DNA of 64,000 nt, from the NCBI RefSeq assembly GCF_027942865.1, contig NC_134509.1:34460197-34524196 (forward strand), in the 5' to 3' direction. The first letter of the stretch is position 1. Each line of letters starts with the position of its first letter. Shown here piece by piece: positions 5,710 to 59,010 of the stretch. A program made the position numbers and the translations under genes. The stretch is from Odontesthes bonariensis (lineage: Eukaryota > Chordata > Actinopteri > Atheriniformes > Atherinopsidae). The notes beneath the pieces are model-generated. The model was not told the DNA's origin. It worked only from the letters and a program-made list of their open reading frames with translations, and made no database searches.

Positions 5710-7107
5710 TTATCTGGCAGTATTCACCTTAGCAAAATCATCATAGATTCTTAACTGTCTGGGGTCCTTTTGGAATCTAAAAAATTGTAGATACACCTCC
5801 TCAGACTGGCATGCTGATAAGCAACCACAATTGGGCTTACAAAGGAGTATGGATTTAATGCTGCCATGTTCTCCAGTTTTTAGAGCCACAAAGGAATTAT
5901 TGCGTTTAAAATTGGCTGCATACGTTTCAGTTGTGTATGAAGTGTGGTTGATGAAACATCTCTTGAACTCTTTTACCCTGAAGAGTATATCAGTTCCAAA
6001 GAGAATGGACTCCGCCAGTGTAATTACTCTGGTTGTGTAATTCCCCACAACCCGAGCATCACTTCCGACTTTGTATGGTTTTGACACTATGTTGTCTTTG
6101 TTAACAAGGTTGTTGAAAAGATCACAGACATCATCACAGGCATTGTTGAATAATTCAGTGTTATGCATTAGTGTTTTGGTGTTAAAAAATCTTCTAAAAA
6201 TTTGTTCAGGGACTGCCTGTGTGCCATTGAACATTTCAAGAAGAGTGCCAATTGTGTCTTCATAAAGAAATGCAGAATTGGCCCAGAGCGGACCCCACAT
6301 TGCTGCATTGCAAAGATGGGTTAAGCAGTGAACGTTGAAAGAAACATGACATTTCCCATAAAGCTCTGGTACCTCAACAACAAAACGTGTAAGACAGGAG
6401 GAAGCAAGCAAAAGATCAGCTTTTTCTACATGACCCTGGAGGAGTGTGTGGATGGAGAAGACAAGCAAAAGCCAGGGACTAAAATATTGCTGGGGTAAAA
6501 CTGTTTTCAAAAGAATGGGGGAATAAAATAAAAGAAATGCCCTCCATTCAGATGCCTTCCAAAAGTGTCTCTCGGACAAAGACCTTGGGCATCTTCTGAC
6601 ATCATGTGGTGGGTGTATGTTGAGGAGAGAATGGTCAATCTGTTGAATAACTTTTGGCTGTAAATAAAATGGTGAAGCTGAGTTTTTGGAATCACACCAA
6701 ATATTGACCAATTGTTTTGTTACACCAAGGCAAACCCTGTGCATGTACTCTGGGACAAAATGTTTGATTATGTCAAAATTAGGAAGGAGCAGCAGTTGAC
6801 TAGGTCCCTTTACCCCATTGATGTCTGTGTCTGAGTGTAGTGCAGCTGATGCCTGTTGGGTGGTCTGATCATGTGTTCTTAGTTGAGGATAGACAGTAGA
6901 GTGAGGATAGACACGTGTAAACCCATTTCCCTTTGGTTCAATTTCTCCCATGTGCAGACAAAACCCACATCCATATCTGCCATTAAATTGTTTCGTGTCC
7001 TGGACCATGGCACGGGCAGGCGCATCACAAATGCAGACACATGGGGCAACTTTTGTGGTGTGTTCATGGCCAATGTTGTCATGCCAAGAAAACCCTTTCC
7101 CTGACAA
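5710..7107 (-). CDS. tnp2-like (CACTA/EnSpm-type) transposase ORF, 465 codons
   Basis: A single open frame on the minus strand encodes a protein of the plant-tnp2/animal CACTA-like transposase type. Recognisable blocks are CDAPARAMVQDTKQFNGRYG with GCGFC (about residues 27-55, a probable zinc-binding segment), LLLLPNFDIIKHFVPEYMHR (about 105-124), RSLSERHFWKASEWRAFLLF (about 174-193) and WGPLWANSAFLYED (about 276-289). The family normally has D-Y-M-H in the second block; here it is E-Y-M-H, so a probable catalytic acid is conservatively changed. The family's N-terminal region is absent. Upstream sequence has a possible splice acceptor near 7122, so this may be the last exon of a longer gene. 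No stop or frameshift interrupts it. The protein would act on DNA in the nucleus; activity is unproven. Confidence 0.8.
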   Translation of the reverse strand: MSGKGFSWHDNIGHEHTTKVAPCVCICDAPARAMVQDTKQFNGRYGCGFCLHMGEIEPKGNGFTRVYPHSTVYPQLRTHDQTTQQASAALHSDTDINGVKGPSQLLLLPNFDIIKHFVPEYMHRVCLGVTKQLVNIWCDSKNSASPFYLQPKVIQQIDHSLLNIHPPHDVRRCPRSLSERHFWKASEWRAFLLFYSPILLKTVLPQQYFSPWLLLVFSIHTLLQGHVEKADLLLASSCLTRFVVEVPELYGKCHVSFNVHCLTHLCNAAMWGPLWANSAFLYEDTIGTLLEMFNGTQAVPEQIFRRFFNTKTLMHNTELFNNACDDVCDLFNNLVNKDNIVSKPYKVGSDARVVGNYTTRVITLAESILFGTDILFRVKEFKRCFINHTSYTTETYAANFKRNNSFVALKTGEHGSIKSILLCKPNCGCLSACQSEEVYLQFFRFQKDPRQLRIYDDFAKVNTAR

Positions 7108-7917
7108 ACGGCTTCAACAGTGTTGACATTTCGGGCTTGCAACCAAACCAAAGAGAGTGTAAAATAGCATACTTTCCACGTACATGAACTGTAATTGAAG
7201 TTGAGGTAACTTAAACATCTTAGTTGTGGTTACTGAGGTTACTGTGTTGGGTTCACTTGCTCTGAGTTTCAAACCAAAAGTTCTGCTAACTCAAGAAAGT
7301 CAATGCATTATGTTGACTAATTTTTTCAAGTTACGGGCACTGAATATTTTTATGTTGACTTCGTAAAAGTTACAGTCACTGCTGTAACTTTTACGAAGTC
7401 AACATTATGCATACAGATTTCTGAGTAAATGACACTTTGTTTAAAATTCAGCACACAGTGTTTAAACCAAGTGGAATTAACTTTGTAACAGCAAATGTGT
7501 TAGTGCTGCCCATTCTCAACAATTCAATTAATATACTTTAGAGTTTTCATTACATTACAATGACATTTGCAAGTTTTGTTACTCATTGAAGCTTACAAAC
7601 TGTTATGATTTCAAAACAGCACACATTGACTCATTGATAAGATTTTTATTTAAAACTCAGTCACAGGATAGATCAAAAGACAGCAACACTGTATCAGTAA
7701 CAGCGTAACAGTAGCTGTAAAAATTAGTAATGTCAAACGATTCATTTTTTAAATGTTTATGTTCTTCATAGGCTGAGATATTTAGGGCGTTATAGGTTGA
7801 CAGTACCTCTACCCAAAAACGACTTAATTTAACAGACTTTTTTTTTTTGCTGTCGTTTTAGTTATAAAACCCATAAAACAAATGATTTCTGACCAGAGGA
7901 ACTTCACAAATCAGTTA
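7108..7917. other. Unassigned noncoding sequence upstream of the tnp2-like ORF
   Basis: AT-rich and mostly unique-looking. It contains the perfect hairpin listed at 7352-7405. No other coding exon could be supported. Confidence 0.45.
7352..7405. repeat. Perfect 24-bp inverted repeat, 6-bp loop
   Basis: Arms 7352-7375 and 7382-7405 are exact reverse complements (left arm starts ATGTTGACTTCGTAAAAG), separated by TCACTG. The structure could form a cruciform or an RNA hairpin. It may be two abutting transposon ends. Confidence 0.95.
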
Positions 7918-9031: not shown

Positions 9032-9279
9032 GCACATTCTGCTTTGAATGTATCTATACCCATCTATACAAGCTGTAGTTGTAAAACCAATTGCATGCAT
9101 TTTGTAAATACTGCATATTCTGTACTTTTGCTTTTTTGCACTGATCAATGCTATTTAGCCCCTAATCAGTGCAAAAAGCAAAAAAGTACAGAATATGCAG
9201 TATTTACAAAATACATGCAATTGGTTTTACAACTACAGCTAGTATAGATGGGTATAGATAAATTCAAAGCAGAATGTGC
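9032..9279. mobile_element. Fold-back element: 114/115-bp inverted repeats, 19-bp loop
   Basis: Arms 9032-9145 and 9165-9279 are reverse complements with only a few mismatches (left arm begins GCACATTCTGCTTTGAATG and ends TTTTTTGCACTGAT). Almost the whole 248-bp unit is hairpin. There is no coding content. Transcription would give a long, nearly perfect RNA duplex. Confidence 0.95.
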
Positions 9280-9284: not shown

Positions 9285-10139
9285 CGGTGCAAAAAGTCAA
9301 GTTGCTGAGTTTTATTTGATGGCTTGCAACCATCACTCTTCCTCTTGATCACATTTCAGAAGATTTCAATGGCAATCAGGCCTGGAGATTGGGCTGGCCA
9401 TGAGAGTTGAATCCTCAAGAGTTGGGGGACATTGTCAGAGTAGAGAGAAGCAAGTTTTATTCCAAAATAACTTTGTATGTGGCTTCAGTAATGCACCTTT
9501 CACAAAGATGAAGTTGACAGATTTAAGCCTTGCTGAAGCACCCTCAGATCATCACCTATTCTCTAACAAATTTCACAGCAGGTGCAAGACACTGCGGTTT
9601 GTAGACCTCTCCAGGTCACTAGCTAACCATTGTATAACCAGGTGTTGGATTAGATGTGAAATTTGGGGAAGGATTGGTGAAGATCTGAGGGTGCTTCAGC
9701 AAGGCTTGAATTGGGCAGATTCATCTTTGCGAACAACGCGTCACTGAAGCCACATGCAAGGTTTTCTTGGGCCAAAACTGGTTTCCTTCTGTTCTGACAA
9801 TGCCCCCGAACACTGAGGACTGTTTTCAGAGAAGGACAATGCTCCAGTCACTCAGCTTGGCTAATGAAGCTGTGGATGGATGACCACCAGATCAATACCC
9901 TGACATGGCCAGCCAAAACCCCCCTTAAAACCTCTGAAATGTGATCAAGAGGAAGCTGGATGGTCAAAAGCAATCAACCAAATCTCAGCAACTTGCATTC
10001 ATGCACCAGGCCTGGACTAAAGTCATCCAAGAACAATGTGAAAGACTAGTGGAAAGCATACCAAAACGCATGAAAGCTGTGACTAAAAATCAGGCTTATT
10101 CCACCAAATATTGATTTCTGAACTCTTCTTAAGTTAATA
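9285..10139 (+). pseudogene. Degenerate Tc1-like transposon, internally rearranged
   Basis: The 3' part (about 9830-10,112) encodes Tc1-like transposase remnants. LTWPAKTP matches the usual 'TWPAQSPDLNP' region, KRKLDGQKQS follows, and QCERLVESIPKRMKAVTKNQ with YSTKY before a stop is the characteristic C-terminus. Frameshifts break it up. The first half is rearranged: 9338-9402 is repeated in reverse at about 9904-9955, and 9480-9560 in reverse at about 9676-9755. Tc1/mariner elements encode a DDE transposase that cuts and pastes at TA. This copy is inactive. Its last 26 bp (10,140-10,165) form the outer end of the left palindrome arm. Confidence 0.7.
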
Positions 10140-11213
10140 CATTACTATTTTGTTGTTTTTAAGTTACAGTTTTTCCCGATCGTTTTGGCCCATTTTTCCA
10201 TTCACAGTTTACTTTTTCAAAACAGCTCACACAAAGCCCTTAACAGAAGCTGAAATAACCAAAACACTTTATGATGTTTGCAGAATGACACCACTTTCTC
10301 AAAACTTGTCACACATCCATCAAAACCAAACTTTTCCATCAAAACCTACAATTTGTGCTCAATTGAACATGTATGTTTTCTCATTTATTTAATAATGGAT
10401 AACAAAATTGAAACTACAGCTATCAATATCAACTTTTGTTCAACACCCTCATAGTATTGACTATTTTACAACTGACAACATACTACAATTTGGGTTTTGT
10501 ATTGAGCACTCTAACTTAGTTATATAACTTAGAAATATACTGTCACAGAGTATTTACAGTAAAATCAGAAAATGTGTATACAGTAAAATATTGTAGATCT
10601 GTTTTTGTATTGCTGAAGTACCTGTCAACACCATTGATTTACATTTGTTCTACTGTGTACAAAATGGCAAGATTCTGACAAGATTCTGACAGAAAAATAT
10701 TTTTTGCAGTACTTGTCACATGCACATAGGCGTCGATTACGGGGGGGACGGTGGGGACATGTCCCCCCCACTATTTATGATTTGAATTTTGTCCCCACGA
10801 CTTTTAAAAATGTGCTCTGATGCGACCGAAAAAAAATCCCCACATTCTCAACCGAAATCGTCGAGTCTAAATCATGCGATAGGCGCGCATGAACATGTGA
10901 AAACCCCAATTTGGTATTTAGTCGTTTGATTTGCCGACTGTGAGCCACTTTAGAAACATGAAGTTGTAAAATGACAGCGGAGTCGGTGCATTCCAATGAC
11001 GTCACACCAGAGGTCCGTTTCACGAAGCAGGTTTAGTGAAAACTCTGAGTTGATTAACCCTGAAATGAGATAAACTTTTACTCAATAAACCTTGAGTTTC
11101 TCTCTGTCTCCGCCCTTTCAGCCATTTGATTTCCTCATTCATTCAGTCAGCAGAGCGAGTTCTTCTACTTCTATAAGTCCATCAGGCACAGCAGGAGGCG
11201 ACTGTTTCCACCA

Positions 11214-11354
11214 ACATGTCCTTTTGACAACGATCCCGTGGATGAAGGTGCAGCATTATTGCGCAGAGAAATAAATATTCGTCGGAGATGGTTATCAGAC
11301 CGCGCACAGATTTTTGCATTTCCAGACAATTATCTTTTTGAGCGGCACCATCAG
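11214..11354 (+). pseudogene. HARBI1-like Harbinger transposase, N-terminal exon fragment
   Basis: The frame reads CPFDNDPVDEGAALLRREI, RRRWLSDRAQIFAFP and DNYLFERHH and then ends against unrelated sequence. This matches the N-terminus of PIF/Harbinger nucleases (HARBI1 type), which cut DNA together with a Myb-like partner. The usual ATG just before CPFD is missing, and the DDE catalytic part is absent, so it is a remnant of element C. An inverted copy lies at 17,060-17,200 in the right palindrome arm. Confidence 0.75.
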
Positions 11355-11699
11355 AATTTTGTTGGGACAAAAGAAAAAAAAGACATAAAATACAAATAAA
11401 TATTTGTATGAATAGGCTTAAAAATATATATATATAGGCCTATTATATTTTATAAAGGCACTTGTGTCTTGGGGGTGGATTCCCTCAGCCACTGGCCTTC
11501 CGTTAGAGGTGGCGGTGCTGGGCACCACCCGTTTTACGGGCATCTGCCTTCTTTCTGTTGGCTCAGTAAAAGTATGTGTTAGTTTAAATAGGCTTAATTA
11601 TTTAACAGAACATGATATAGATGAGAAGACATAGTTTATGTGTGTGAAAACAGCATTATGTTGGGGATAAAATAACTGCACAGTCAAATAGCCACTTAA

Positions 11700-11782
11700 T
11701 ATTTATATATAGCACATTGAGTTGCCTGTAGTATGAAATGCGCTATATAAATAGATGCCTTGCCTTGCATTGCCTATTTACT
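11700..11782 (+). mobile_element. LINE 3' tail fragment
   Basis: AGCACATTGAGTTGCCTG and GAAATGCGCTATATAAATAG followed by TGCCTTGCCTTGC are the 3' terminus of an L2/Rex-type LINE. No coding sequence remains. The mirrored copy is at 16,632-16,714. Confidence 0.6.
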
Positions 11783-12112
11783 TTACAGTGTAAAACATGA
11801 TCTGAGGTACCTCCATGCCGAGGTCTCACCTGTTTGAACAATGTTTTTATATTTCATCTTAAGCTGCTGCCAATTGCGCTTCTCCTCCGCGGGATTGCAC
11901 CTAAATGAAATAAATGAATGGGTTACCATTCAAGCAGTTTCCCTGTAATATTATTGTGATTGCAAAGGACTACATTTAAAATTACACTTTTACTGCTGCA
12001 GCGGTGTTGCACTTATTTCTAAAAACGTGTTGAAAATCGCCGTATGAGCGCATTAAGATTTCCAATTCGAGGTTGGTGAAAAACGCAGCCCCTCCTCTTC
12101 CCTATGGAAGCA

Positions 12113-12482
12113 AATCGTAATCAAAATTCAAATTCAAATGCATTATCAGAAATGCTTTTTCATTTTAAGAATGTGGCTGCATTATTTGACTCATAAATAA
12201 AATTACTAATCAATCATCCTATTTGCATTTCAATTTTCTTCTTCAAGACTGCTCATTCTTTCACTTAATTCAAATGAAAAGGACAAAGACATTTGAAATT
12301 TAATTTTCAAAATATGCCTCAGCAAATAGATACCAAAATTCAATTTGAAATGTAAAAGTTGAAAATTCAAATGCATTATCAGAAATGCTTTTTCATTTTA
12401 AGAATGTGGCTGCATTATTTGACTCATAAATAAAATTACTAATCAATCATCCTATTGCATTTCAATTTTCTTCTTCAAGACT
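12113..12482 (+). repeat. Direct duplication of about 125 bp inside element D
   Basis: The segment CAAATGCATTATCAGAAATG through TTTCTTCTTCAAGACTGC occurs at about 12,133-12,252 and again at about 12,367-12,483. The mirrored pair lies in the right arm, and the terminal part recurs as D's right end at 18,283-18,372. Confidence 0.85.
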
Positions 12483-12645
12483 GCACATTCTATGCCATAA
12501 TCAAAAAGAAAACAAAGCGGACATTGCTTTTTCGTTTTCGTGGTCTGCATGCAAAATACTGCCCACAATTCGATAATGAAAAAGCAATCTGAGCGGCGCA
12601 GGAGAGTGACGTCACGCCTGCTGACCGTGCTACCCATCATGTAGG

Positions 12646-13010
12646 CTACGGTAGGGGGCGGTGTGCATATTTGCTGTACAGTTTAGCTGCCCAGGTGGAG
12701 TCAAACAATATATCCGATTCTGATGCCCGTGACCGGGTTGAACGGGTCACAGAGAGCTTGGCTGCATACTCTGCCGTCACAGATTCAGAGGTTAGTGCAG
12801 CAAGGGCTAGCGCGTCGCGGCTACGACCGGCCATGACTTTCTGGCCGCAGCCATTAATGAGGCTGAGACAGACGTTGCGAACAGGAGTCGGGGGATTACC
12901 TTTCACAGGTAGGATTCAACATTATTATTGGTTGTATTTTGTCAATAGAATATTATTGTACTGTATTTGTGTCTGCCGGCGAAATCGTAGCCAGCAAACG
13001 TTAAACTAGG
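12646..13010. other. Unrecognised GC-rich open region in element D
   Basis: Open frames on both strands cover this unusually GC-rich patch (plus 12,671-13,009, 112 codons; minus 12,646-12,906, 86 codons), and both are repeated in mirror image at 15,405-15,768. I do not recognise either product. The plus frame has an acidic/serine-rich stretch; the minus frame has a basic segment. A GT donor-like site lies near 12,907. It may be an exon of D's own gene. Confidence 0.3.
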
Positions 13011-13024
13011 ATATGTTTATAGCC

Positions 13025-13552
13025 GGTGTTATGCTGAGAAGTGCACCCCCTGCTGGTCGTACTTTAAGGAGAGTCTGTGATGGAATGATATGATATAACT
13101 ACATCATAATTTGTTTACCTAATTGAATTAACGGATGCAAATCTCAATAAGTCCAAATTTGTATATAAAATTAAAATAACCAAATTTCATAGTTTCAGGT
13201 TAATTTTTATATCATTTCATCTGGGCTATAATGAGTTGAGATTGTTAATAGAAAATGTATCCAACCGTCTTTCGTGTTGACTACAAAAGTATTAGTCACA
13301 GCCCTTACTTTTGAATATATCTCCAATAATATAAAAATAGTTAGGAATAGGAATACTCTAAACTCTACAATTGTCGGATTATCATAATTGTACACGTATT
13401 ATTAATTTACATGAAGAGATGTGAAAAAAAGATGCACGAATGAAACACCATTGTCAGCTCAATATTATTTTTTTTGGATAAATGTAATAATCCACACCTG
13501 AAACGGTTTACGCGCGCTCCGTGAATGGGAATGCACTTCTCGGCATAACACC
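13025..13552. mobile_element. Small inverted-repeat element E inside D (528 bp)
   Basis: GGTGTTATGCTGAGAAGTGC at 13,025 and GCACTTCTCGGCATAACACC ending at 13,552 are reverse complements with one mismatch. The interior is AT-rich and noncoding. The mirrored copy is 14,862-15,389. The target duplication is unclear. Confidence 0.6.
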
Positions 13553-14128
13553 TCTGTTCACACGGCTATTAGGCCAACGGAGACTTCATAAATCATATAT
13601 TCCATAACACAGGCTTAGATCACAACTAACACAAGAATGCTGCTTTTGAAATAATGCAAATATTACTGTTATAACATTGACCATCAGATTTTACTCAGGT
13701 TTATTAATGACGTTTATTATGCCTGTATTATTCACATGTAATTCTTTCATCCTAACAAAAGTATTTACCTCATGTCTCATACCCACCCCTCAGATTGTCC
13801 GACCGAGAGTTGGTGTTATTCCCTCCATCTTGGGCTTACAGGTTCACCTAATAAGAGTAGGTGTATCATCATAAGGCTATTAGCATTCAGAAATTGAAAT
13901 ATTATCAATAACAGGGCGGGGTGAAATACTTATCCCTGTGTGTGTGTGTATTTTTATATATTTTAATATTATGCTTCTTCATTTTAGCCAGAAAAGGGCA
14001 GGACTACATGTTCTTCCAGAAAAGCTGAAGAGAGCCTGTCTGTGACCACTCAGGATGACAGCAAGGGCTCGCACATTTTCTGGTGGGAGGGGGGACACAC
14101 ACTAGGGCCAGAACACCAACTACAGGTA

Positions 14129-14285
14129 CCGTACATTAACAGCAGAATGACAGTGTGTGATAGACTGGTCAGTAGGCTATATTTATAAGACACCGATGCC
14201 CGTTGTCAGCTGCCGCTGTTTTGGCAGCTCGAGCCTTGTCGTAATTTTGTACTTTGGAACGGATGGAATGAGAATCCAGCTTTGT
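14129..14285. other. Palindrome spacer (157 bp)
   Basis: Unpaired sequence between the two arms, apparently interior sequence of element D. No ORF or known motif was recognised. It would be the loop of the fold-back. Confidence 0.95.
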
Positions 14286-17200
14286 TACCTGTAGTTGGTG
14301 TTCTGGCCCTAGTGTGTGTCCCCCCTCCCACCAGAAAATGTGCGAGCCCTTGCTGTCATCCTGAGTGGTCACAGACAGGCTCTCTTCAGCTTTTCTGGAA
14401 GAACATGTAGTCCTGCCCTTTTCTGGCTAAAATGAAGAAGCATAATATTAAAATATATAAAAATACACACACACACAGGGATAAGTATTTCACCCCGCCC
14501 TGTTATTGATAATATTTCAATTTCTGAATGCTAATAGCCTTATGATGATACACCTACTCTTATTAGGTGAACCTGTAAGCCCAAGATGGAGGGAATAACA
14601 CCAACTCTCGGTCGGACAATCTGAGGGGTGGGTATGAGACATGAGGTAAATACTTTTGTTAGGATGAAAGAATTACATGTGAATAATACAGGCATAATAA
14701 ACGTCATTAATAAACCTGAGTAAAATCTGATGGTCAATGTTATAACAGTAATATTTGCATTATTTCAAAAGCAGCATTCTTGTGTTAGTTGTAATCTAAG
14801 CCTGTGTTATGGAATATATGATTTATGAAGTCTCCGTTGGCCTAATAGCCGTGTGAACAGAGGTGTTATGCCGAGAAGTGCATTCCCATTCACGGAGCGC
14901 GCGTAAACCGTTTCAGGTGTGGATTATTACATTTATCCAAAAAAAATAATATTGAGCTGACAATGGTGTTTCATTCGTGCATCTTTTTTTCACATCTCTT
15001 CATGTAAATTAATAATACGTGTACAATTATGATAATCCGACAATTGTAGAGTTTAGAGTATTCCTATTCCTAACTATTTTTATATTATTGGACATATATT
15101 CAAAAGTAAGGGCTGTGACTAATACTTTTGTAGTCAACACGAAAGACGGTTGGATACATTTTCTATTAACAATCTCAACTCATTATAGCCCAGATGAAAT
15201 GATATAAAAATTAACCTGAAACTATGAAATTTGGTTATTTTAATTTTATATACAAATTTGGACTTATTGAGATTTGCATCCGTTAATTCAATTAGGTAAA
15301 CAAATTATGATGTAGTTATATCATATCATTCCATCACAGACTCTCCTTAAAGTACGATCAGCAGGGGGTGCACTTCTCAGCATAACACCGGCTATAAACA
15401 TATCCTAGTTTAACGTTTGCTGGCTACGATTTCGCCGGCAGACACAAATACAGTACAATAATATTCTATTGACAAAATACAACCAATAATAATGTTGAAT
15501 CCTACCTGTGAAAGGTAATCCCCCGACTCCTGTTCGCAACGTCTGTCTCAGCCTCATTAATGGCTGCGGCCAGAAAGTCATGGCCGGTCGTAGCCGCGAC
15601 GCGCTAGCCCTTGCTGCACTAACCTCTGAATCTGTGACGGCAGAGTATGCAGCCAAGCTCTCTGTGACCCGTTCAACCCGGTCACGGGCATCAGAATCGG
15701 ATATATTGTTTGACTCCACCTGGGCAGCTAAACTGTACAGCAAATATGCACACCGCCCCCTACCGTAGCCTACATGATGGGTAGCACGGTCAGCAGGCGT
15801 GACGTCACTCTCCTGCGCCGCTCAGATTGCTTTTTCATTATCGAATTGTGGGCAGTATTTTGCATGCAGACCACGAAAACGAAAAAGCAATGTCCGCTTT
15901 GTTTTCTTCTTGATTATGGCATAGAATGTGCAGTCTTGAAGAAGAAAATTGAAATGCAATAGGATGATTGATTAGTAATTTTATTTATGAGTCAAATAAT
16001 GCAGCCACATTCTTAAAATGAAAAAGCATTTCTGATAATGCATTTGAATTTTCAACTTTTACATTTCAAATTGAATTTTGGTATCTATTTGCTGAGGCAT
16101 ATTTTGAAAATTAAATTTCAAATGTCTTTGTCCTTTTCATTTGAATTAAGTGAAAGAATGAGCAGTCTTGAAGAAGAAAATTGAAATGCAAATAGGATGA
16201 TTGATTAGTAATTTTATTTATGAGTCAAATAATGCAGCCACATTCTTAAAATGAAAAAGCATTTCTGATAATGCATTTGAATTTGAATTTTGATTACGAT
16301 TTGCTTCCATAGGGAAGAGGAGGGGCTGCGTTTTTCACCAACCTCGAATTGGAAATCTTAATGCGCTCATACGGCGATTTTCAACACGTTTTTAGAAATA
16401 AGTGCAACACCGCTGCAGCAGTAAAAGTGTAATTTTAAATGTAGTCCTTTGCAATCACAATAATATTACAGGGAAACTGCTTGAATGGTAACCCATTCAT
16501 TTATTTCATTTAGGTGCAATCCCGCGGAGGAGAAGCGCAATTGGCAGCAGCTTAAGATGAAATATAAAAACATTGTTCAAACAGGTGAGACCTCGGCATG
16601 GAGGTACCTCAGATCATGTTTTACACTGTAAAGTAAATAGGCAATGCAAGGCAAGGCATCTATTTATATAGCGCATTTCATACTACAGGCAACTCAATGT
16701 GCTATATATAAATATTAAGTGGCTATTTGACTGTGCAGTTATTTTATCCCCAACATAATGCTGTTTTCACACACATAAACTATGTCTTCTCATCTATATC
16801 ATGTTCTGTTAAATAATTAAGCCTATTTAAACTAACACATACTTTTACTGAGCCAACAGAAAGAAGGCAGATGCCCGTAAAACGGGTGGTGCCCAGCACC
16901 GCCACCTCTAACGGAAGGCCAGTGGCTGAGGGAATCCACCCCCAAGACACAAGTGCCTTTATAAAATATAATAGGCCTATATATATATATTTTTAAGCCT
17001 ATTCATACAAATATTTATTTGTATTTTATGTCTTTTTTTTCTTTTGTCCCAACAAAATTCTGATGGTGCCGCTCAAAAAGATAATTGTCTGGAAATGCAA
17101 AAATCTGTGCGCGGTCTGATAACCATCTCCGACGAATATTTATTTCTCTGCGCAATAATGCTGCACCTTCATCCACGGGATCGTTGTCAAAAGGACATGT

Positions 17201-18274
17201 TGGTGGAAACAGTCGCCTCCTGCTGTGCCTGATGGACTTATAGAAGTAGAAGAACTCGCTCTGCTGACTGAATGAATGAGGAAATCAAATGGCTGAAAGG
17301 GCGGAGACAGAGAGAAACTCAAGGTTTATTGAGTAAAAGTTTATCTCATTTCAGGGTTAATCAACTCAGAGTTTTCACTAAACCTGCTTCGTGAAACGGA
17401 CCTCTGGTGTGACGTCATTGGAATGCACCGACTCCGCTGTCATTTTACAACTTCATGTTTCTAAAGTGGCTCACAGTCGGCAAATCAAACGACTAAATAC
17501 CAAATTGGGGTTTTCACATGTTCATGCGCGCCTATCGCATGATTTAGACTCGACGATTTCGGTTGAGAATGTGGGGATTTTTTTTCGGTCGCATCAGAGC
17601 ACATTTTTAAAAGTCGTGGGGACAAAATTCAAATCATAAATAGTGGGGGGGACATGTCCCCACCGTCCCCCCCGTAATCGACGCCTATGTGCATGTGACA
17701 AGTACTGCAAAAAATATTTTTCTGTCAGAATCTTGTCAGAATCTTGCCATTTTGTACACAGTAGAACAAATGTAAATCAATGGTGTTGACAGGTACTTCA
17801 GCAATACAAAAACAGATCTACAATATTTTACTGTATACACATTTTCTGATTTTACTGTAAATACTCTGTGACAGTATATTTCTAAGTTATATAACTAAGT
17901 TAGAGTGCTCAATACAAAACCCAAATTGTAGTATGTTGTCAGTTGTAAAATAGTCAATACTATGAGGGTGTTGAACAAAAGTTGATATTGATAGCTGTAG
18001 TTTCAATTTTGTTATCCATTATTAAATAAATGAGAAAACATACATGTTCAATTGAGCACAAATTGTAGGTTTTGATGGAAAAGTTTGGTTTTGATGGATG
18101 TGTGACAAGTTTTGAGAAAGTGGTGTCATTCTGCAAACATCATAAAGTGTTTTGGTTATTTCAGCTTCTGTTAAGGGCTTTGTGTGAGCTGTTTTGAAAA
18201 AGTAAACTGTGAATGGAAAAATGGGCCAAAACGATCGGGAAAAACTGTAACTTAAAAACAACAAAATAGTAATG
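14286..18274 (-). repeat. Right arm of the palindrome (3,989 bp)
   Basis: This is the reverse complement of 10,140-14,128. It ends at 18,274, is followed by 8 bp (TCAAATAA), and then joins the right terminal repeat of element D at 18,283. It includes inverted copies of the left ends of A, B, C and D. The copies of features in the left arm can be located by subtracting their coordinates from 28,414. Confidence 0.97.
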
Positions 18275-18657
18275 TCAAATAAGAGTCAAATAATGCAGCC
18301 ACATTCTTAAAATGAAAAAGCATTTCTGATAATGCATTTGAATTTGAATTTTGATTACGATTTGCTTCCATACTTCCCCGTTGCCATGGTGACTCGTCGA
18401 ATCGGGGCTCCATTGATGCTGGCTTTTTAAAGTTGTGGTGCACGCGCTAAACTCAAGGTCCTACTCAGAGTTGATTAAACTCACTCAAATCAGCGTTTCT
18501 GACTGGAACCGAAAACTCAGAGTTTTCTATCTCAGAGTAGATCAACTCAGAGTTCAGGAACAGACTCAGAGTATGTTGAACCTGCTTTGTGAAACGGACC
18601 CCGGGTAAACCGCTTTCCCGGCGAAACTCATTTAGAGCTACTTCTACACAAACAAAA

Positions 18658-18808
18658 ATGCAGCGTTTCTTCGCAACTTCGCTGGTGGTTCTTCCAAGGA
18701 TAACTTTAGAGGATATACACAGGATTGTGGAGTCACACTCACCAACACCACAGTCCAGGCTGAGGAAAGGGTACAAGTTCTTTGTGGAGTATATACACAG
18801 TTATCAAG
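18658..18808 (+). CDS. First coding exon of element B, unknown product
   Basis: From the ATG at 18,658 the frame reads MQRFFATSLVVLPRITLEDI and then HRIVESHSPTPQSRLRKGYK, FFVEYIHSYQ, and meets a splice donor (CAAG|GTAAAT) at 18,808. The ITLEDI...RL.KG.KF...YIHSY pattern resembles the N-terminus of a large family of fish transposon-associated proteins that carry SWIM/YqaJ-like domains further on. No later exon was found before B's right end at 19,606, so only this exon remains. It could encode a short truncated peptide. Confidence 0.45.
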
Positions 18809-19606
18809 GTAAATTGTCTAACGTTTTATTTTTATCAGTAGGCTACTCAATAGCCTTCCACATTCATGTTTTGTAATGATAAGCAAACCATATACGATCC
18901 ATAGAAATCATCTGAAATATTGTCTGTGTGTGAAATGTGTGTTAAATATTTGTCATGTGTAGACTATAATATTATGAATATAATTTGCCATGGTGGCTAT
19001 GAAGTCTCCGCGTGCAGCGTTAGCATTTTAGTATTAGGTTAGCCAAGGAAAGGTTAAGCTAGTTATTTGCTTGTTTTTTTTTTTAGCAACTCCTGAAAAT
19101 AACATTCTGTATATGCTCAGTGTCAAATGTAGTTGATGGAAAGGTGGTAGTGAGAGGCTCGATGAGGAGGAATGAGGAGCCCCACAGACTACAGGTTTCT
19201 GCTTAGTTATAGGGCCCGTTGGCTGAAGTCTGTGTTTGTTTTGATAGTCTGTCCGGACTAACAACTGCAGTTGCAGTTGCACTTTTCCCCTTTTTCTGTT
19301 GTTCAGATCATTTTCACTGTTCTTTCTTACAAACAGTACAGTAGCGTAATTAATTAACAGTGATTAATTCATGAATAAATACATAATTTCGAATCATATC
19401 ATAATGATATGGAAACATGAAATTAAAGGATATATTTTATAAACTTTGTATGCGTTCATCAAAAAAAGGGCCGCTTATTAAACATGACGCTGGAATAGAT
19501 CTAGAATGCGTTACTTTTTAATGTGCTGGATGGTGGGTGGTCCGTGGGGGGCATAGAATGCATTACGTTTTTTGTCCCCACCACTTCTAAAACCAAACTG
19601 ACGCCC
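18809..19606. other. Right part of element B, no further gene seen
   Basis: Noncoding sequence ending in TTTTTTGTCCCCACCACTTC and the B terminus. Small overlapping ORFs have no recognisable features. Confidence 0.5.
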
Positions 19607-19753
19607 TTGCACATGCACATACTATAAGCAATCAAAATGACAGGGTTCAATATGCAGTGCAACAAAGGTCAATTCTCAAAAAAGAAAGTACTGTAAATGA
19701 AACACAATGAAATGAAACCCTGTAAATATGAAAAAAATAAAAATACAGGAAAA

Positions 19754-21301
19754 TTACGCATTGTCGACACGGGCCTGACGATCAGGCCACATGTTCTCAT
19801 CCACGTCACAGAGTATGTCATCCATTGCAATACATTGAGGGAAAAAACGTCTTGAATGGCGAATCCACCCCTGGCAGTCTTCTGCGCGGATTGTCAAGCA
19901 TGCAGCATTCATTGCATCGAGCAATGACATCTGGTCATGAGGCCTATGGTCATTTACTTTCCAACGCCAGCAGGAGAAAAACTCCTCGATTGGATTTAGC
20001 ATGGGAGAGTATGCAGGGAGAAACAATGTCATCAGGCGTGGGTGAGCCGTGAACCAGTCATTCACTAACCTTGAATGATGGAAGGCCACATTGTCCCAAA
20101 TTATGACAAAATGGGACATGTTTGCCCTGAACAGGCCTCTCTCCTGTGGCAGTACCAGCCGCTCATGCAATGCATTGAGGAATGTGATTAGGCGATCACT
20201 GTTGTATGGGCCTATAGATGGGATATGGCAAAGGACTCCATTTGTGGAAATAGCAGCGCACATGGTGATGTTTGCTCCCCTCTGTCTAGGGACGGTTACT
20301 GTGGCCCTCTGACCAATGATGTTTCGGCCACGTCTCCTAACTTTGGAGAGGTTGAATCCAGCCTCATCGACGTAGATGAAGACATACTGCCTTTCGTCTG
20401 CTTCCAGATCCATTACTCTCTACATTCAAAAAGAAATTCAGAGTAAATCATACAGTAACATATACAGAAGATGCTGTTTTCTACTGTAATTGAATTTTAC
20501 AGTATGCAGCAAGACAAATCCAAATGCAGTGACAGATCCATACCTGTACATACTGTGCACGTGCTGCCTTGACGCGGTCGCTGTTTCTTTGAAATGGCAC
20601 CTTATATAGCTGCTTGGTTGCCACCAGATTGCGTTTCAGGATGCGGTCTATTGTTGCCAGACTGACACTGTTTATGTTCATAAAAGTCACCTGGTCAGCT
20701 AAGACCGCTGCCTTTATCTCACGCAATCTGATGGCATTGTTAGCAACTACCATGTTCACAATGGCAGCCTCCTGTTCAGCAGAGAAAATTCTTCCCCTGC
20801 CACCAGTGTGGGCCAGTGTGTTGATTCTGTGAAAATAGTGCCAATGACTGTAAATACTGTAAATGTACAGTAATCAGAATTCTACTGTATATTTTGAAAG
20901 TCAGTTACAGTACTCTATTGGAAATGACTCTAGTAAAACTACAGTAATGCATTGTATTACTGTATGGCAACACTTTACAATAGTACAGAAATGGCTGTTG
21001 CCAAGAGTGCAAATACAGTGAAACACAGTACAGTACGTAAATTGACCAGCAAAGTGACTTACCTATTTTCATTGCGGAAAGTACGAACTATTGATGCCAC
21101 CGTATGCCTGCTCAGGTTTGGCTGCACCCTTAGTCCGGCCTCTCTCATGGAGAGACCATGATTTACAACATGGTCAATGATTGTTGCCCTAATTTCATTG
21201 GAACTCCTAACACCAGGGCCACCTCCCCTGGCAGGGGCCTGTCTAGCTCTCCCACGACCTCTTCCTCTTCCTTGTCCTCGTCCATGTCCTCCTCGATCCA
21301 T
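19754..21301 (-). CDS. Intact three-exon DD35E (IS630/Tc1-type) transposase of element A
   Basis: Exons read leftwards: 21,301-21,063 (ATG, donor GTAAGT), 20,826-20,544 (acceptor TTTTCACAG, donor GTATGG) and 20,419-19,754 (acceptor GAATGTAG, stop). They total 1,188 nt, so the spliced frame is open for 395 codons. The N-terminus is a Gly/Arg-rich tract, then a helix-turn-helix region (NEIRATIIDHVVNHGLSMRE, about residues 43-62). Exon 2 holds a second DNA-binding segment. Exon 3 has the catalytic triad: VDEAGF, IIWDNVAFHHS and SPMLNPIEEF, with 35 residues between the second D and the E. Such proteins bind the terminal repeats and cut and paste at TA in the nucleus. No stop or frameshift is visible. 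The promoter lies next to the right terminus. The left terminus is now 9 kb away because of element B, so mobility of this copy is doubtful, although the enzyme could act in trans. Confidence 0.85.
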
Positions 21302-21931
21302 GCTTGGTGTCAACTTCAAGCTATTGACCTCTTTGATAGGTTGAGAACTACTTGCTTTGTTTTGCAAAGAGAGTTCACACAGGTGCTGATAATTTTTAGA
21401 ATTGAGAGAGCAGTTCCAATTGGCTGCTACTAAGTGTCTGCAATGTGTTGCCATGGTAAATCAGTTATGTTTCGTGTCTCTTTGTGAGAAGTGTGTTAAC
21501 TGTTTTGAAAAGTGTATTAAAAGTCAAAGAAAATTGTGTGAAAGCAATGAGAAATAGTTAACTGATTCACCAGAGAGGACTCTTGCTGTGCAAAGAAGGT
21601 GTGAGCATTAGATAAAGTTGACCCATGATGTGCAAAATGTGTCAAAGCAATCGAGAACAACTGTAATATCATCTTGTTTTCTTTGCCTTTGAGGTCTGGA
21701 AACATTGCATCTTATGTGTTATTTTGATCATTTATTATTTTCTGCAAATAAATGCTCTGAATGACAATATTTTCTTTCGAAATTCGGACAAAATGTAGTC
21801 TGTAGTTTATAGAATGAAATAATGTTTGTTTTACTCAAACACATACCTATCCATAGCAAAATTTCGAAGTGGTCAATCAATTTGTTCCGAAGGCTGAGCA
21901 GTACGTGAGTATGATTTACTGATGGGACTTA

Positions 21932-23491
21932 CAGTTTTTCTCGAATGTCAGAACACATTTCAGGAAACTGCCCTCCGTTTTCTCTAAACTCTAAACACAA
22001 AACACTTTTCTCAAGCTAGCTCCACAAAAACTCGCAGTCTCTTTGCAAAACGAAACTCTCACTCCAAAACCCAAACTTTCAACCACAAAACCCAAACTTT
22101 CACCACAAAACTGTTGCTCCTATGGCCAAAACCAAACTTTGACAACAAAATGGTCCTCACAGCTTGAAAACACAATGTTCAGGGTGTGATGTTCTAAGTA
22201 CCCCATCATTTGTATAGTAATCACATCTGTATAGTAATCAATAGTAAGTCACAGATTATTTTTAGGGGAATTGAACCCCATTTATTTACAACCTGTACAA
22301 ACGTACTTTTCCCAAAACAAATTTCAAAAGAGAACAAAAGCATACATGGGGATACATGTCACAAATTCTTACAGTAAAGAGGTACTATGGGGTCTGTGGG
22401 GGGGTCTGTGGGGGGGCCTGTGGGGGAGGCTGTGCGGGGGCCTGCGCATCACGTCGTCGGGTGGGGTCAGGCCACAGGACCTCGTCCACATCGCAGGCTA
22501 TGTTTTCCCTCGCCAGGCAACAGGGGAAGAAAGCTCTGGCATGCCGGACCCAGCCTGAGTAATCCCCCACATCATCACAGGCCAGGTCCATGGCCCTGAG
22601 GAGGTTTTCTCTACTATATGGTTGCCGGTCATACACCTTCCACCGCCATGATGAGAAGAACTCCTCTATGGGGTTGAGGAAAGGTGAGTAGGGTGGCAGA
22701 CATACATTGAGGAATTGTTGGTGTATATTGAACCACTCTCTTATCTGGTTGGTGCGGTGAAAACTGACGTTGTCCCAGATGATGACATAGATGGGAGGAG
22801 GCTGTGCTGGAACCAGATTCTGCTGCTCACGGTCAATCAGGATGTCCCGTAGCTCTCCCAGGAATGTGAGGAGACGCTGGGTGTTGAAGGACCCAAGGAG
22901 AGCCTGCCTGTGGAGAAGCCCTTCTGAGGTCATGGCTGCACATAGGGAGATATTCCCCCCACGTTGGCCAGGAACATCCACAATTGCTCTTTGGCCAATT
23001 ATGTTACGGCCTCTCCTCCTTCTCTTGGTGAGGTTGAAGCCAGCCTCATCCAGGAAGATGTATTCATGAGGTCTCATCATGGCGTCCAACCCCAAGATTC
23101 TCTGTGGAAATGAATAGAGTATGGGTAGTGTCACATGTGTCTTCAATTTTGAGTCACCGTGTTTAAGCAATGACGCCCGTGCTTTCATTGTGTTCAACTT
23201 TTGATGTCTGAGTCTACCATTTTGCATTGTGTGAGCAAAAGTGTGTTTTAGCAAGTGCGAAAGTGTTTAACATAAGTGTGAATGTGTTCAGAGCAGTGCA
23301 AATGTGTTTAGAGTTCTGCAACATGTGTTTTGGCAAATGCAAATGTGTTCAGAGTTTTGTGAAATTGGAGATTGAGGTGAAATGTGTTTATAGTTAAGCC
23401 AACTAGGGGCCTGATTTATTAAATGTGTTTAGGCAACTGGTCATTGTGCTCTGAGATCTAGAAATTGTGCTTTAGCAATCGAGAAAAACTG
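21932..23491 (-). mobile_element. Second IS630/Tc1-like transposon, 1,560 bp, relative of element A
   Basis: The ends are TA|CAGTTTTTCTCGAATG at 21,932 and AGCAATCGAGAAAAACTG|TA at 23,491, inverted and flanked by TA. It lies 268 bp beyond element A and has the same orientation. Subterminal sequence has repeated motifs of the type CCAAACTTTCACCACAAAA on the left and GCAAATGTGTTTAGAGTT on the right. Confidence 0.9.
22385..23101 (-). pseudogene. Catalytic exon of DD35E transposase, 5' exons missing
   Basis: From a splice acceptor (TTTCCACAG before AGAATCTTGG, 23,102-23,104) the frame is open for 238 codons. It contains FLDEAGFNLTKRRRRGRNII, IIWDNVSFHRTNQ and SPFLNPIEEFFSSWRWKVYD, with the same D-to-E spacing of 35 residues as element A's enzyme. 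The C-terminus ends in a Pro/Gln-rich repeat (PPQAPPQTPPQTP) encoded by a G-rich tandem at about 22,385-22,445. The DNA-binding exons seen in element A have no counterpart between 23,102 and the element's right end at 23,491. The copy therefore cannot make a complete transposase, although the catalytic domain itself is undamaged. Confidence 0.85.
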
Positions 23492-23673: not shown

Positions 23674-25250
23674 CCAGCATGTTTTCAGCATGATCCTGTC
23701 TGCTCCAAAATCCTTCAAGAACAGTGGCAGTCCCTTGAGGGCCACAGTCCTGCGGCATTGTGCGATGTTGGATGTCTGTGGAAGAGACAAAGCTGAGTGT
23801 GCGCATATCAGACAGTCAAAACAAAGTGATTGTGAGAGTGAATGCTTCAGTGTGTCTGAGTGAGTGAGTGAGTGAGTGAGTGAGTGAGTGAAAGGATACA
23901 AGTGAGAGGGAGCCCCCATAAACACACACGCACGCACGCAGAGAGAGAGCACGCATGAGAGCACGCATTCAGCGAGAGAGACGGAGAGAGAGAGAGAGGG
24001 ATTATGAGAAAGAGCGGGAGCACGAGAGAGAGAGAACGAGATAGAGAAAGAGCACGAGAGAGAGAGAGCATGAGAGAGCGAGAGCAAGCCGAAGAGAGAG
24101 CGAGATAGAGAAAGAGCACGAGAGAGAGAGAGCATGAGAGAGCGAGATAGAGAAAGAGCATGAGAAAAAGCACGAGAGTGAGCAAGAGTGCACGAGAGAG
24201 AGAAAGAGAGCACGAGAGAGAGAAAGAGAGAGAGAGAAAGAGAGAAAGAGAGAGAGAGAAAGAGAGCACGAGAGAGAGAAAGAGCGAGAGAAAGAGAGAG
24301 CGAGAAAGAGAGCACGAGAGAGAGAGCGCACAAGAGAGAGAGCACAAGAGAGAGAGCACAAGAGAGAGAGAGAGAGATATGTCATGCTTCTTACCTCATT
24401 ATCCAAAGAGTCGAGGAGCTGGCTCATATCCTCACCAAGATGTGCTCGCTTTGCTCTGTACATTTTGATGAGTTTAGGGGTGTGAGTTTCCACAGCAGTC
24501 TGGAATGTCCTTTCCAAGTTGATCATCGTTATTCGCTGAAATTCGTAGTTCACCTGATGAATATAGTGAAAACAGTGAATATGTTAGCATAGATGCCAAA
24601 GCTGAATGGGTTGACTTCTAGTCTTAATAACAGTTAAAATTAAGATGTGAAACTAACCTGGCATTCCATGAAGAGTGCTGGCCATCTGCTTTTCACCGTA
24701 TCAACAGGGGGTTCCTGGTCAACTATTTCTTTCCTTCTCAGGGGAAAGGTACGATCCATTGCCGCATTAACAAGTGCCATGTTTGGGCTCTTTTTCTGCA
24801 TCTCTGCTGTCAGGACCTCTCTGTCGTTTTCCAAAGTGTCTTCATTTTTTCCAGGTGGTTGATCAGGAAGGAAATTAACTTCTGCTCATTTTGCTTTTTT
24901 TATGCCAGACCTACCCTCTTCACGCTTTCCCTTTCTTGTATTTATTTTCACTTCTTCACAGCCTGCATTCCGCAGCTTTTGACGGTAATTACCAATCTTG
25001 AACGCAATACTCATCCTCCATCCATTCCATCCACTTCCACTGCCTGGTTCCCGGAGACAGGGATATTTGTTGACCAGAGTCATCGCCACAGAATCCATTT
25101 CTGATTTTTCTGGATATGCAGTCATCTCAAACATGGCGTGTGCAATTTTATCCAGGATTTCTTTTTTGATATCTCTTGTGACCTCGAGGAGAGTACCATT
25201 GTCCTTGTAGACATCATTCCCCTTTTGCAGACGCAATTCCACATCATAAC
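23674..25250 (-). pseudogene. SAMD3-like gene, three exons, downstream of the tnp2-like ORF
   Basis: Exon a (about 25,250-24,658) reads RFCYDVELRLQKGNDVY, KEILDKIAHAMFEMTAYPEK, KYPCLREPGSGSGWNGWR and FKIGNYRQKLRNAGCEEV, then AMDRTFPLRRKEIVDQEPPV and VKSRWPALFMECQ before donor GTTAGT. Exon b (24,553-24,395) reads VNYEFQRITMINLERTFQTA and LIKMYRAKRAHLGEDMSQLL, donor GTAAGA. Exon c (23,775-23,674) reads TSNIAQCRRTVALKGLPLFL and ends CW before GTAAGG. All junctions are GT-AG. This is the body of the fish 'SAM domain-containing protein 3-like' family. The N-terminal (SAM) region and the last exon are missing; an exon of that last type is at 8578-8889. Exon a abuts the tnp2-like ORF in a different frame. 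Confidence 0.75.
23855..24380. repeat. (GAGT)n/(GA)n microsatellite in a SAMD3-like intron
   Basis: About ten GAGT units (from 23,857) are followed, from about 23,940, by roughly 440 bp of GA-rich imperfect repeat. It fills most of the intron between exons b and c. The strand is almost pure purine on plus. Confidence 0.97.
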
Positions 25251-27485
25251 AGAACCTTGGTAGTGGAAAACATGGATACGTTGTCTGGAAGAATTCGCAT
25301 CAAGGTGGTATGCCACCATTAACTGGTGTTTGGATGCCAGGGTAACAAGAATGTTCTTAAAATTTTGGGTGTCATGTACAACTTTCTTAAAAAAACTATG
25401 CTTGGCTTCGAAGCGCATTGTCCATAGCTCCACCAAGGGACCAAAACACCTAACCAGATGCGGATAGTGTTCCACATAGTGATGTTTTGGCCGTAAACGC
25501 AGATCAGGGAAAGTGTCAATTAGCAAGCTACGGTGGTCTGCTATTTTACTTTCCAAATAGTTCAGAGATGTCTCTGAGAACTTTGCGCTGACAACAATCT
25601 CAGTAATGTCTTTCAGATCCATGAGAATTTCCCATGCTGGCTCATTCTCTAGCACACAATGACCAATCATCAGAGTCAATAATCTTAGCAAAGTCCAGTT
25701 TTCATGGCCATTGCCCCAGCCACTACCTCTCAAAAAACTGGATTTGGGTATTTGGTGTGGCTTGTTGACTTTGTCGTAGTGCATGTATGGAAATGTCATT
25801 ATATCACTGTTAACATCATCAAGGGCAATGAATTCCTTCCTGATGAGTTCCTTCAGGCATAATGACATTTCCACAGGCACAATCCCCTCAAACAGATCAT
25901 GGAGAACATCAGGAGGAAAGCCAGTGATGGGGTGGAAATAGGCTAGTTGTTTGCTTAAAGCACACTCACCTTTGACACCAGATAGGGCAGTGTTGCCTTC
26001 AAGGATTGTAAGCAGTTGGTCGTGCTGTTCGGGCGTCCTCAGCTGGAATGCTGAGGGAGGGGTGTCTTGCAGTGACTCTCTGGAAATCAGACAAAATCGG
26101 CAAAAATTGGCAACAGAAAAACTCTCTTGAAAGCCAGCCAAACCATGTGCTGCCAAATTATCGGCACAAATGCAGAAAATTGTTCCCTTCACATTCTGCT
26201 GTTTTGCCTGGACATATATCCCTTCCTTTTCCAACAGTGACATGTCTCTTAACAAAGGGGCAAGAAATCTGTCAAATCCATACAGCTTCACATCATCACT
26301 CCTACCAAGAGCAGCCAGCTGAATGGATGGCAAAGATGAACGACACTTTGCAGGCAAGTTCAGTAGTACCCAATATACCGCTGTGATTTTGTGTATTTTC
26401 CTCGAAGTGCCCAGAGGGTTGCAGACCTCCAGGTCATCTGTGTAAAAGGCTAAAGCAATGCTAGCCTCTTCCTCTCCAAACAGTGTATTACATCGATAGT
26501 ATTTCCCATCTCTGAAAGACTGGAAAACACCAGGAAGACTCTCTCCAGCAAAATTAATGTTTTCAACAACATCCTGGCTACAAAGTAGACAGTCAAGCAT
26601 GTCCAAAACCGGAACATAGACAAAGCATTTCTCTGAAACACCTTCATAACGATACTCCACTGGTTGTATGACAGGGAAATTTTGTACATAGTACTTGTTC
26701 CTGCAATAATCAGTTGAGAGCACTCCCTTTACTTTAGTACTGTCATAAAATGGGTTTGCCCCTAGCACGGCTTCAGTCACCTCCTCAAGAACCTGGTCAT
26801 CAACTTCCTGGTTGTATTTAAGAAGTACCTTCCTCATATTTTGTTGTGCCTGTATTCTTGAATAATGCCCAATGTCATTCAACTCCTCTATAATCATCTG
26901 TGTGGCCTGTCTTGAAATGTGCAAGACTGTCTGCATGCAAAGAAAAAGTGATTCAAGCCTATGTTGTAAAGAGGGTGCATCCACCCTGTCTTCACCTACA
27001 GCTGCTGATAAGTTGTGCTCACAACTCGGCCCAGCTGTCTGTCCATCTGTGTCATCATCGTGTTCAACAATATCCCTTTCAGATGTCCTAATGTCTTTAG
27101 CTGTGTGGTGTTTATGTAACCTACTTCTATGGCTACTGAAAGTAGGGACCACATTGGTGCTGAAATCACAATTTACGAATGGGCATCCAACTGTCTGAAG
27201 ACTCCTTAAATGCGATCTTAAATGACTGAAAATCTGCTTTTCATCACAGACATCCTTAAAATCACACAGTTCACATGTAAATGCTGTAGTAGTCTGTGCA
27301 TGTGGTGCTGTTTTTGAGTGGGATTTCGAAAGATGGCATCTTAAAGACCCAGATGTTTTAAATGAGCAGAGGCAGTCCTTGAAAAAACATGGCCACCGGG
27401 CACTTACATGGCTATGGTGTATTCTGTGGTGTCTTAACAGAGTTTCTGCGCTCTGGTGGATAAACGTGCAAAATGTGCACTGCAT
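25251..27485 (-). CDS. C2H2 zinc-finger + tnp2-like transposase ORF
   Basis: The ORF starts MQCTFCTFIHQSAETLLRHH. C2H2-type fingers fill roughly residues 1-130 (CTFC...HHRIHH, CFFKDC...HLSKSH, CELCDF...HLRSH, CPFVNC...HRSRLH). The central and C-terminal regions match the tnp2-like proteins abundant in fish: FCICADNLAAHGLAGFQESF with FCRFCLI, GVKGECALSKQLAYFHPITG, FPPDVLHDLFEGIVPVEMSL, GWGNGHENWTLLRLL, RPKHHYVEHYPHLVRCFGPL and LWTMRFEAKHSFFKKVVHDT. The candidate acidic residues (D in VLHDLFEG, E in RFEAKHSF) are present. The frame is uninterrupted for about 745 codons. Near 25,250 it shifts into the SAMD3-like exon, so the family's own C-terminal region is deleted or the two are joined by a small indel. 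Presumed role: DNA transposition in the nucleus. Confidence 0.8.
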
Positions 27486-27507
27486 CAGGAAAAGACAGAA
27501 CCAAGCA

Positions 27508-27662
27508 CAGGTGTGTGTGTGTGCGCGCGAGCCCGCGGCCGTACAAGGCGCGTGCGTGCGCGCTCACGTGTGTGTGTGCGCGCTCGCGTGTGTGCGCTCG
27601 CGTGTGTCTGTGCGCGCTCGCGTGTGTGTGCGCGCTGTGCGTGCATCGTGCGCGTATGTGTT
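27508..27662. repeat. GT/GC-rich microsatellite
   Basis: Alternating GTGTGTG and GCGCGCTCGCGTGTG units directly upstream of the zinc-finger/tnp2 ORF start. Alternating purine-pyrimidine sequence of this kind can adopt Z-DNA. Confidence 0.9.
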
Positions 27663-27694: not shown

Positions 27695-27905
27695 AATAGG
27701 CTAGTTGTTTGCTTAAAGCACACTCACCTTTGACACCAGATAGGGCAGTGTTGCTTTCAAGGAATGTAAGCAGTTGGTCGTGCTGTTTGGGCGTCCTCAG
27801 CTGGAATCCTGAGGGAGGGGTGTCTTGCAGTGACTCTCTGGAAATCAGACAAAATCGGCAAAAATTGGCAATAGAAAAACTCTTGAAAGCCAGCCAAACC
27901 TTGTG
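27695..27905 (-). pseudogene. Duplicated fragment of the tnp2-like ORF
   Basis: About 210 bp repeat 25,938-26,148 in the same orientation, with a few substitutions and small indels. It encodes NFCRFCLISRESLQDTPPS and HDQLLTFLESNTALSGVKGE again. It starts and ends abruptly in unrelated sequence, 0.2 kb upstream of the parent gene's ATG. Confidence 0.9.
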
Positions 27906-27956
27906 CGGCCATGGAAGTGTGTGCAAATATATTTCCTCGGGATTAATACATGATAC

Positions 27957-30218: not shown

Positions 30219-30641
30219 TTAAAGCTGCGGTCGGCAACTTTTTTTTAGTCATATTAGCTTGAACTGTCATGGGATTCTGGAAGTAGAATATTAAATAGGC
30301 TGTTTAGGAAAAATAACGAAATCTGTAGCTCCCTCTGAAGCCTGTAATCGTGCTTGCAAAAACCGAGCGCTCCCGGCTGTTTTTAACCAATCAAGTTAGG
30401 GTGGAGGAATCCTACCTGTCAATCACAGCTTGTGCACACGCTGCTGAGGTGAGTCTGCCCCAGCTTGTGTGCGCTCACACTGGTGTGAACTCACGTGCAC
30501 AACCTCGTCCACGGAGGGGAAGGGGTTTGGGGGGCGATTCGGGGCTTGTTAGAGGTTGGGGGAGGGACCTGAAAGTTGTATCAGTTCGAATTTTCCGACT
30601 TTTGACTCGCAATTTTGAAAACCTGCCGACAGCAGCTTTAA
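30219..30641. mobile_element. TTAA-target MITE, copy 1 (423 bp)
   Basis: The termini are TTAAAGCTGCGGTCGGCAAC on the left and CTGCCGACAGCAGCTTTAA on the right. TTAA flanks both ends, pointing to a piggyBac or Kolobok mover. Copy 2 at 44,171-44,594 is nearly identical throughout. There is no transposase. Confidence 0.85.
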
Positions 30642-30815
30642 GTCAGGTCTGCGGGTCTTAATGGAACTCAACAAACAAGGTATTTGTGTAGTGTTTTGCG
30701 ATACCAACAAGGAGCACCCAAGTATTTAATTCCATAATTTTCAGTGTTCATCTCCGGTTCCACCTGTCTTGATGCAACCCTTAACTGTGTACATTTTCTG
30801 TTTGGTTTGTCATAG

Positions 30816-58983: not shown

Positions 58984-59010
58984 GTTGTGGCTTGTGGAGC
59001 AGCAGCTAGT

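Follow-up and report, generated by a model that had tools for sequence, protein, structure and literature searches.

The subject of this study is a palindrome of 8.1 kb in the genome of the fish Odontesthes bonariensis, which lies at positions 10,140 to 18,274 of the 64,000 nucleotides that were analyzed (contig NC_134509.1, positions 34,460,197 to 34,524,196; hereafter the window). The palindrome runs through a nest of four transposons, named here A to D from the outermost to the innermost, and consists of two arms and a short unmatched spacer. We consider it to be, with a probability of about 0.6, a recent local inverted duplication generated by replication with two template switches, as in microhomology-mediated break-induced replication (MMBIR) or in "four-point" template switching.

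The arms are reverse complements of 3,989 bp each and obey the relation p + p' = 28,414 all along, with four substitutions and no indel, as claimed by an earlier sequence-only reading of the same DNA. The self-alignment of the window that this reading had proposed was performed by BLAST (self-BLAST); it recovered the palindrome and showed that the pair 10,139/18,275 is also complementary, which brings the maximal arm to 3,990 bp. The parts of the palindrome are as follows:

10,140-14,128, plus strand: left arm, probably the original copy, differing at four positions from 14,286-18,274 in reverse complement; bears the left ends of A, B, C and D
14,129-14,285, 157 bp: spacer, unmatched, presumably the interior of D adjoining switch point 1
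14,286-18,274 (may end at 18,275), minus strand: right arm, probably the inserted inverted copy; splits the left part of D from its right terminal repeat
18,267-18,293: outer junction, with TAGTAAT at 18,267-18,273, in register with the left terminal repeat of D, and GTCAAATAA at 18,274-18,282 and again at 18,285-18,293

The four mismatches (left-arm position, left-arm letter and right-arm letter after reverse complementation) are 12,505 A/G, 13,056 G/A, 13,321 C/G and 13,621 C/T, corresponding to an arm divergence of 0.10% (95% interval 0.03-0.26%). None of them falls in the eight homopolymers of at least 6 bp or in the two dinucleotide runs of the left arm, so that these runs are identical in both arms. 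The inverted copy would be recent if the four substitutions are younger than the event and gene conversion has not intervened; some of them may date from the event itself. Regarding their polarity, only 12,505 has a counterpart in the internal tandem copy of D and, by an ungapped count in a diverged stretch, this counterpart is A, as in the left arm. No 14-mer of the spacer occurs a second time anywhere in the 64-kb window. All other inverted repeats in the self-BLAST are far smaller, the largest being a self-complementary stretch of 252 bp (91%) at 9,032-9,279 and an alignment of 420 columns (71%) at 9,412-9,819. A further self-complementary stretch, of 153 columns (85%), was recovered at 57,935-58,084. 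All three are perhaps elements of the miniature inverted-repeat transposable element (MITE) type with long terminal repeats.

The distinction between the original and the added arm comes from the transposon nest, whose members are listed below:

10,167-21,663, minus strand: element A, of the DDE_3 transposase type; TA on both sides, terminal repeat 17/22; left end in the left arm, transposase and right end in the right flank
10,725-19,609: element B, inside A; 8-bp target-site duplication CACATGCA at 10,717-10,724 and 19,610-19,617, short terminal repeat 8/10
11,012-18,600: element C, inside B, from local alignment; terminal repeat 22/26
12,103-18,372: element D, inside C; terminal repeat 90/90, 101/106 overall; 6-bp duplication CTTCCC at 12,097-12,102 and 18,373-18,378
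13,025-13,552: element E, a MITE-like inverted-repeat element with 26-bp ends, 88% complementary; whole within the left arm
9,938-10,166, plus strand: Tc1-like remnant, a transposase C-terminal frame from 9,938 with its stop at 10,112-10,114, ending STKY, and the sequence after it; spans the arm boundary

The left ends of A, B, C and D (10,167, 10,725, 11,012 and 12,103) sit in the left arm, in agreement with the earlier reading, and their right ends were found in the right flank in an order mirroring that of the left ends; the left arm is therefore the probable original and 14,286-18,274 the probable added copy. This segment is positioned inside D, between the spacer and the right terminal repeat of D, and beyond it the sequence resumes with the right ends of D, C, B and A in order. 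We thus infer that left flank, left arm, spacer and right flank were one original locus, to which only 14,286-18,274 would be extra. None of the breakpoints (10,140, 14,128, 14,286 and 18,275) coincides with a recognised element end, and the target-site duplication amounts to 1 bp at the edges of the insert and to 0 bp at those of the palindrome. Together with the mirrored right ends, this supports the view, already put forward in the earlier reading, that the arms copy a locus and not a mobile element.

The ends of D were located by self-BLAST and local alignment and those of C by local alignment; no target-site duplication was recognised at the ends of C. In a control with random arm/flank pairs, 0 of 200,000 equalled the terminal repeat and target-site duplication for each of A, B, C and D, with C scored by its repeat alone and with the sampled right ends starting at 18,380, which leaves the true right end of D 8 bp outside the range. 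The terminal repeat of B, taken alone, is weak; at 8/12 it was the best among the 451 arm/flank pairs with a shared 8-mer at the site, out of 14,359,200 pairs, the runners-up having 7/12. The transposase frame of A (19,754-20,419) matches DDE_3 in Pfam at E 2.4e-24. A second DDE_3 transposase frame (22,385-23,266, minus strand) lies outside the right end of A. The sequence at 21,929-21,944, paired with the right arm, was tried as the right end of A and rejected, since it resembles the left end of A and has the orientation of that end; it is more likely to begin the next, related element.

The left region of D contains a 151-bp direct repeat (12,130-12,280 and 12,363-12,512, 94%), whose first copy starts 27 bp inside the end of D. 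Without the inverted copy, D would measure 2,183 bp plus 98 bp, an additional loss at the join being possible. In Pfam, the open frame of D has no family at E 0.05, and a possible exon of D has a single match, below threshold. As for the Tc1-like remnant, the 26 bp of it that the earlier reading placed in the arm proved to be 27 bp with the TA included (10,140-10,166), the arm sequence before the start of A at 10,167. Against the C-terminus of Sleeping Beauty the remnant gave a weak match over 36 residues (E 0.065). Its non-coding part, which has no database match, probably continues as in Tc1 elements across 10,140 and past the right end of A. The Tc1 3' sequence and the terminal repeat of D had 0 matches each in viral contigs, D had 0 in genome contigs and the Tc1 remnant none in phages, no eukaryote collection having been searched.

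The letters of the outer junction document where the copy returns to D. Moving inward, the right terminal repeat of D agrees with the left one over 90 bp without mismatch, then at 4/9 positions and then at 7/7 (TAGTAAT) in register, and TAGTAAT doubles as the end of the inverted copy. In addition, the 9-bp patch GTCAAATAA is duplicated exactly, 11 bp further on. Two readings fit this arrangement. Either a 7-bp homology would have been used at the switch, with a +11/-11 misalignment afterwards, or the homology would be of two bases (GT), after which nine bases would have been copied and 11 slipped back; under this second reading, the match of TAGTAAT would be due to chance. At the 9-bp patch, the inner part of the right repeat of D would originally have carried either TTTATTTAT or GTCAAATAA. 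Both readings have the signature of a polymerase, which a computational misjoin should not leave, although a chimera made enzymatically in the tube could do so.

The frequency of such junction features was estimated with control sequences. The 16 bp at 18,267-18,282, as reverse complement, agree in register with the inward extension of the left repeat of D at 11/16 positions; at least 11/16 was reached by 17 of 20,200 control 16-mers, and the last seven letters were exact in 3 of 20,200. A 9-bp direct repeat of period 9-14 was present in 154 of 17,320 control windows of 20 start positions each. Short-period direct repeats of nine bases are in fact not rare, with 137 in 63,970 starts (period 9-12, tandem arrays included) and 40 in 62,696 starts when arrays are left out (period 9-14, that of the junction counted).

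If templates were switched, the location of the inverted copy inside D, together with the return into the right terminal repeat of D, calls for two switches. Rightward synthesis through D would have halted at 14,285 and resumed at 14,128 with the complementary strand as template (switch 1). About 4 kb would then have been copied backwards, via the left ends of D, C, B and A, to the Tc1 remnant at 10,140, where the template would have been left again and D rejoined about 98 bp from its end, within the right terminal repeat (switch 2). This return may have occurred by short homology with a brief 11-bp misalignment, leaving the 9-bp copied patch. The sequence itself shows that the arms are nearly identical, that the elements are split and which letters stand at the junction; the direction of copying and the mechanism are deduced from this anatomy, as is the probable conclusion that D lost little or nothing between 14,285 and 18,275. 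The two switches, the return into the right terminal repeat of D and the junction homology with its copied patch are additions to the sequence-only reading. An unusual hairpin of the spacer was considered as the cause of the stall and rejected: the spacer alone folds with a z of -0.99, equalled by 29 of 200 shuffles, and the stronger value (z -2.31, 3 of 200) took in the arm ends, which pair by construction.

Both models named above have features in common with this scheme. MMBIR, and likewise fork stalling and template switching (FoSTeS), involves template switches out and back, inverted segments and short junction homology, and its description notes that long-distance replication after a switch in inverted orientation might yield a dicentric and would call for a second inversion; a second switch is also described there as necessary (PMC2621351). 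That description was built on human disease rearrangements, whereas the segment here is of 4 kb, has no known phenotype and had, according to our reconstruction, both switches local. Four-point template-switch mutations, as described in PMC7954356, share with the palindrome the order of the points (1, 2, 3, 4) and a reversed tract followed by return.

Several points weigh against an origin by two template switches. The structure is read from assembled sequence, and its existence in the organism is presumed. For A and B, the ends were set by eye from the printed sequence and then scored, local alignment having given unrelated short matches instead. Only one reading of the return junction can be right, and the one with 7 bp presumes that the right repeat of D once matched the left one at that place; moreover, the junction controls were designed after the junction had been seen. 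Homology can be read only at the outer junction, since at the inner one the comparison would need the original sequence after 14,285. Finally, the four-point tract would be of ~3,990 bp here, while the great-ape events reach only 128 bp in PMC7954356, a study of short-range events.

The main biological rival is a triplication by origin-dependent inverted-repeat amplification (ODIRA), rearranged afterward by deletion of the third copy, which we judge unlikely although it would lead to the same final anatomy. ODIRA triplications, like the present structure, are interstitial and have a palindromic junction with a short spacer, and the model has palindromic triplications rearranging secondarily (PMC10766186); a short-homology outer junction would also suit a deletion. 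The third copy, in direct orientation, was not found in the window, where the 20-mers shared with the arm and lying outside the palindrome number 71, all at 18,283-18,372, in the right terminal repeat of D; a later deletion could have taken the third copy. Short inverted repeats bounding the spacer would also be expected from ODIRA, but after 14,285 the window shows only the joined letters. The spacer can be read in two ways, since its 157 bp are close to the Okazaki size of ~150 bp but exceed the 40-80 nt given for yeast inverted repeats in the same work (PMC10766186). This explanation also needs two events, with a deletion ending right beside the sequence that the spacer leaves.

An artefact of assembly or library, in which the assembly took in a chimeric fold-back read or a chimera from amplification, is likewise doubtful. 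The 157-bp spacer and the 99.9% identity of the arms would fit it. In our understanding of such reads, however, a fold-back read has a single junction, after which the left flank follows in reverse as far as the read goes; here the copy ends at 10,139/10,140 and the second junction re-enters D at the right place, which disfavours a simple fold-back read. The four substitutions would be unexpected if one molecule gave both arms, but a join of two haplotypes could account for them. Fold-back reads with the second segment near and on the opposite strand make up ~0.55-0.6% of nanopore genomic reads, and PMC12870357, which reports this figure, also describes three PacBio samples without systemic fold-backs and their virtual absence from PacBio HiFi, which would count against an artefact if the present assembly came from that platform. 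Whole-genome amplification is a further source of palindromic fragments, some of which reached assemblies (PMC6218980). The sequence-only reading had left the choice between template switching and a long-read artefact; the boundary evidence favours the former over the latter.

It is very unlikely that the palindrome arose by end-primed fold-back after a double-strand break, in which a hairpin-capped end would have been healed later by joining the other side of the break. Such priming has been studied in Sae2- and Mre11-deficient yeast (PMC10622511), and human fold-back inverted duplications carry, as this palindrome does, a single-copy spacer between the inverted copies, with short homologies (PMC3907307). 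The duplications and spacers of that human series are nevertheless much larger, 766-70,466 bp for the spacers of 21 sequenced junctions compared with 157 bp here, and they accompany terminal deletions, translocations or rings (PMC3907307), whereas the present locus continues rightward. A transposon-driven origin, by alternative transposition via element ends or as a mobile element with 4-kb terminal repeats, is scarcely credible even in a region built of nested transposons, and was rejected on account of breakpoints off the recognised element ends and the lack of a target-site duplication.

The rest of the window holds reverse-transcriptase and DDE transposase frames and simple repeats, besides a perfect array of the hexamer GCATGT (32,618-32,718, 16.8 copies). 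Two long open frames, at 5,710-7,113 (467 codons) and 25,122-27,563 (minus strand, 813 codons), have no Pfam match at E 0.05; both are perhaps transposase-like. A part of the 813-codon frame (25,937-26,155) has a direct copy at 27,695-27,911 (95.9%). The self-BLAST also recovered a 425-bp sequence in two direct copies 14 kb apart (30,219-30,642 and 44,171-44,595, 98% identical), the second of which overlaps a frame (43,059-44,255) with a match to DUF4371 at E 2.2e-07 and 31.4 bits, below the cut-off of 32.1. Two minus-strand frames with a histone fold (59,011-59,517 and 63,392-63,799) match the Pfam family Histone and are presumably H3 and H2B; a histone 3' stem-loop at 58,944-58,988 comes after the first. 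This suggests a histone cluster near the transposon nest.

Among the papers listed by a literature search on palindromes and zebrafish, 12 of 32, no title describes a fish palindrome of this kind. A parallel from transposon biology is the maize locus Mu killer, in which a transposon is partly inverted-duplicated together with its terminal-repeat region and for which a hairpin RNA of ~4 kb was proposed (PMC3440606). Mu killer silences MuDR (PMC3440606), an activity that would be hypothetical for the palindrome described here. By analogy, and as a very improbable extension, the palindrome might be a vertebrate counterpart of Mu killer: read-through transcription would give a near-perfect 4-kb hairpin RNA with the ends of four transposon families in it, and small RNAs from it might silence A to D elsewhere in the genome. 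Such silencing, if true, would also account for the persistence of the palindrome.

Rearrangements of this kind are known, but the transposon landmarks resolve the present one unusually well, since a nest with recognisable ends indicates the original arm and the return point of the second switch without a reference allele. If confirmed by reads, it would be a clear example from nature of an inverted excursion of kilobase length with return to its own site. It would then bear on the dispute between a return within one replication tract and a later rearrangement of triplications, the alternative favoured in PMC10766186, whose authors state that they came across no published experiments in support of FoSTeS in a model eukaryote.

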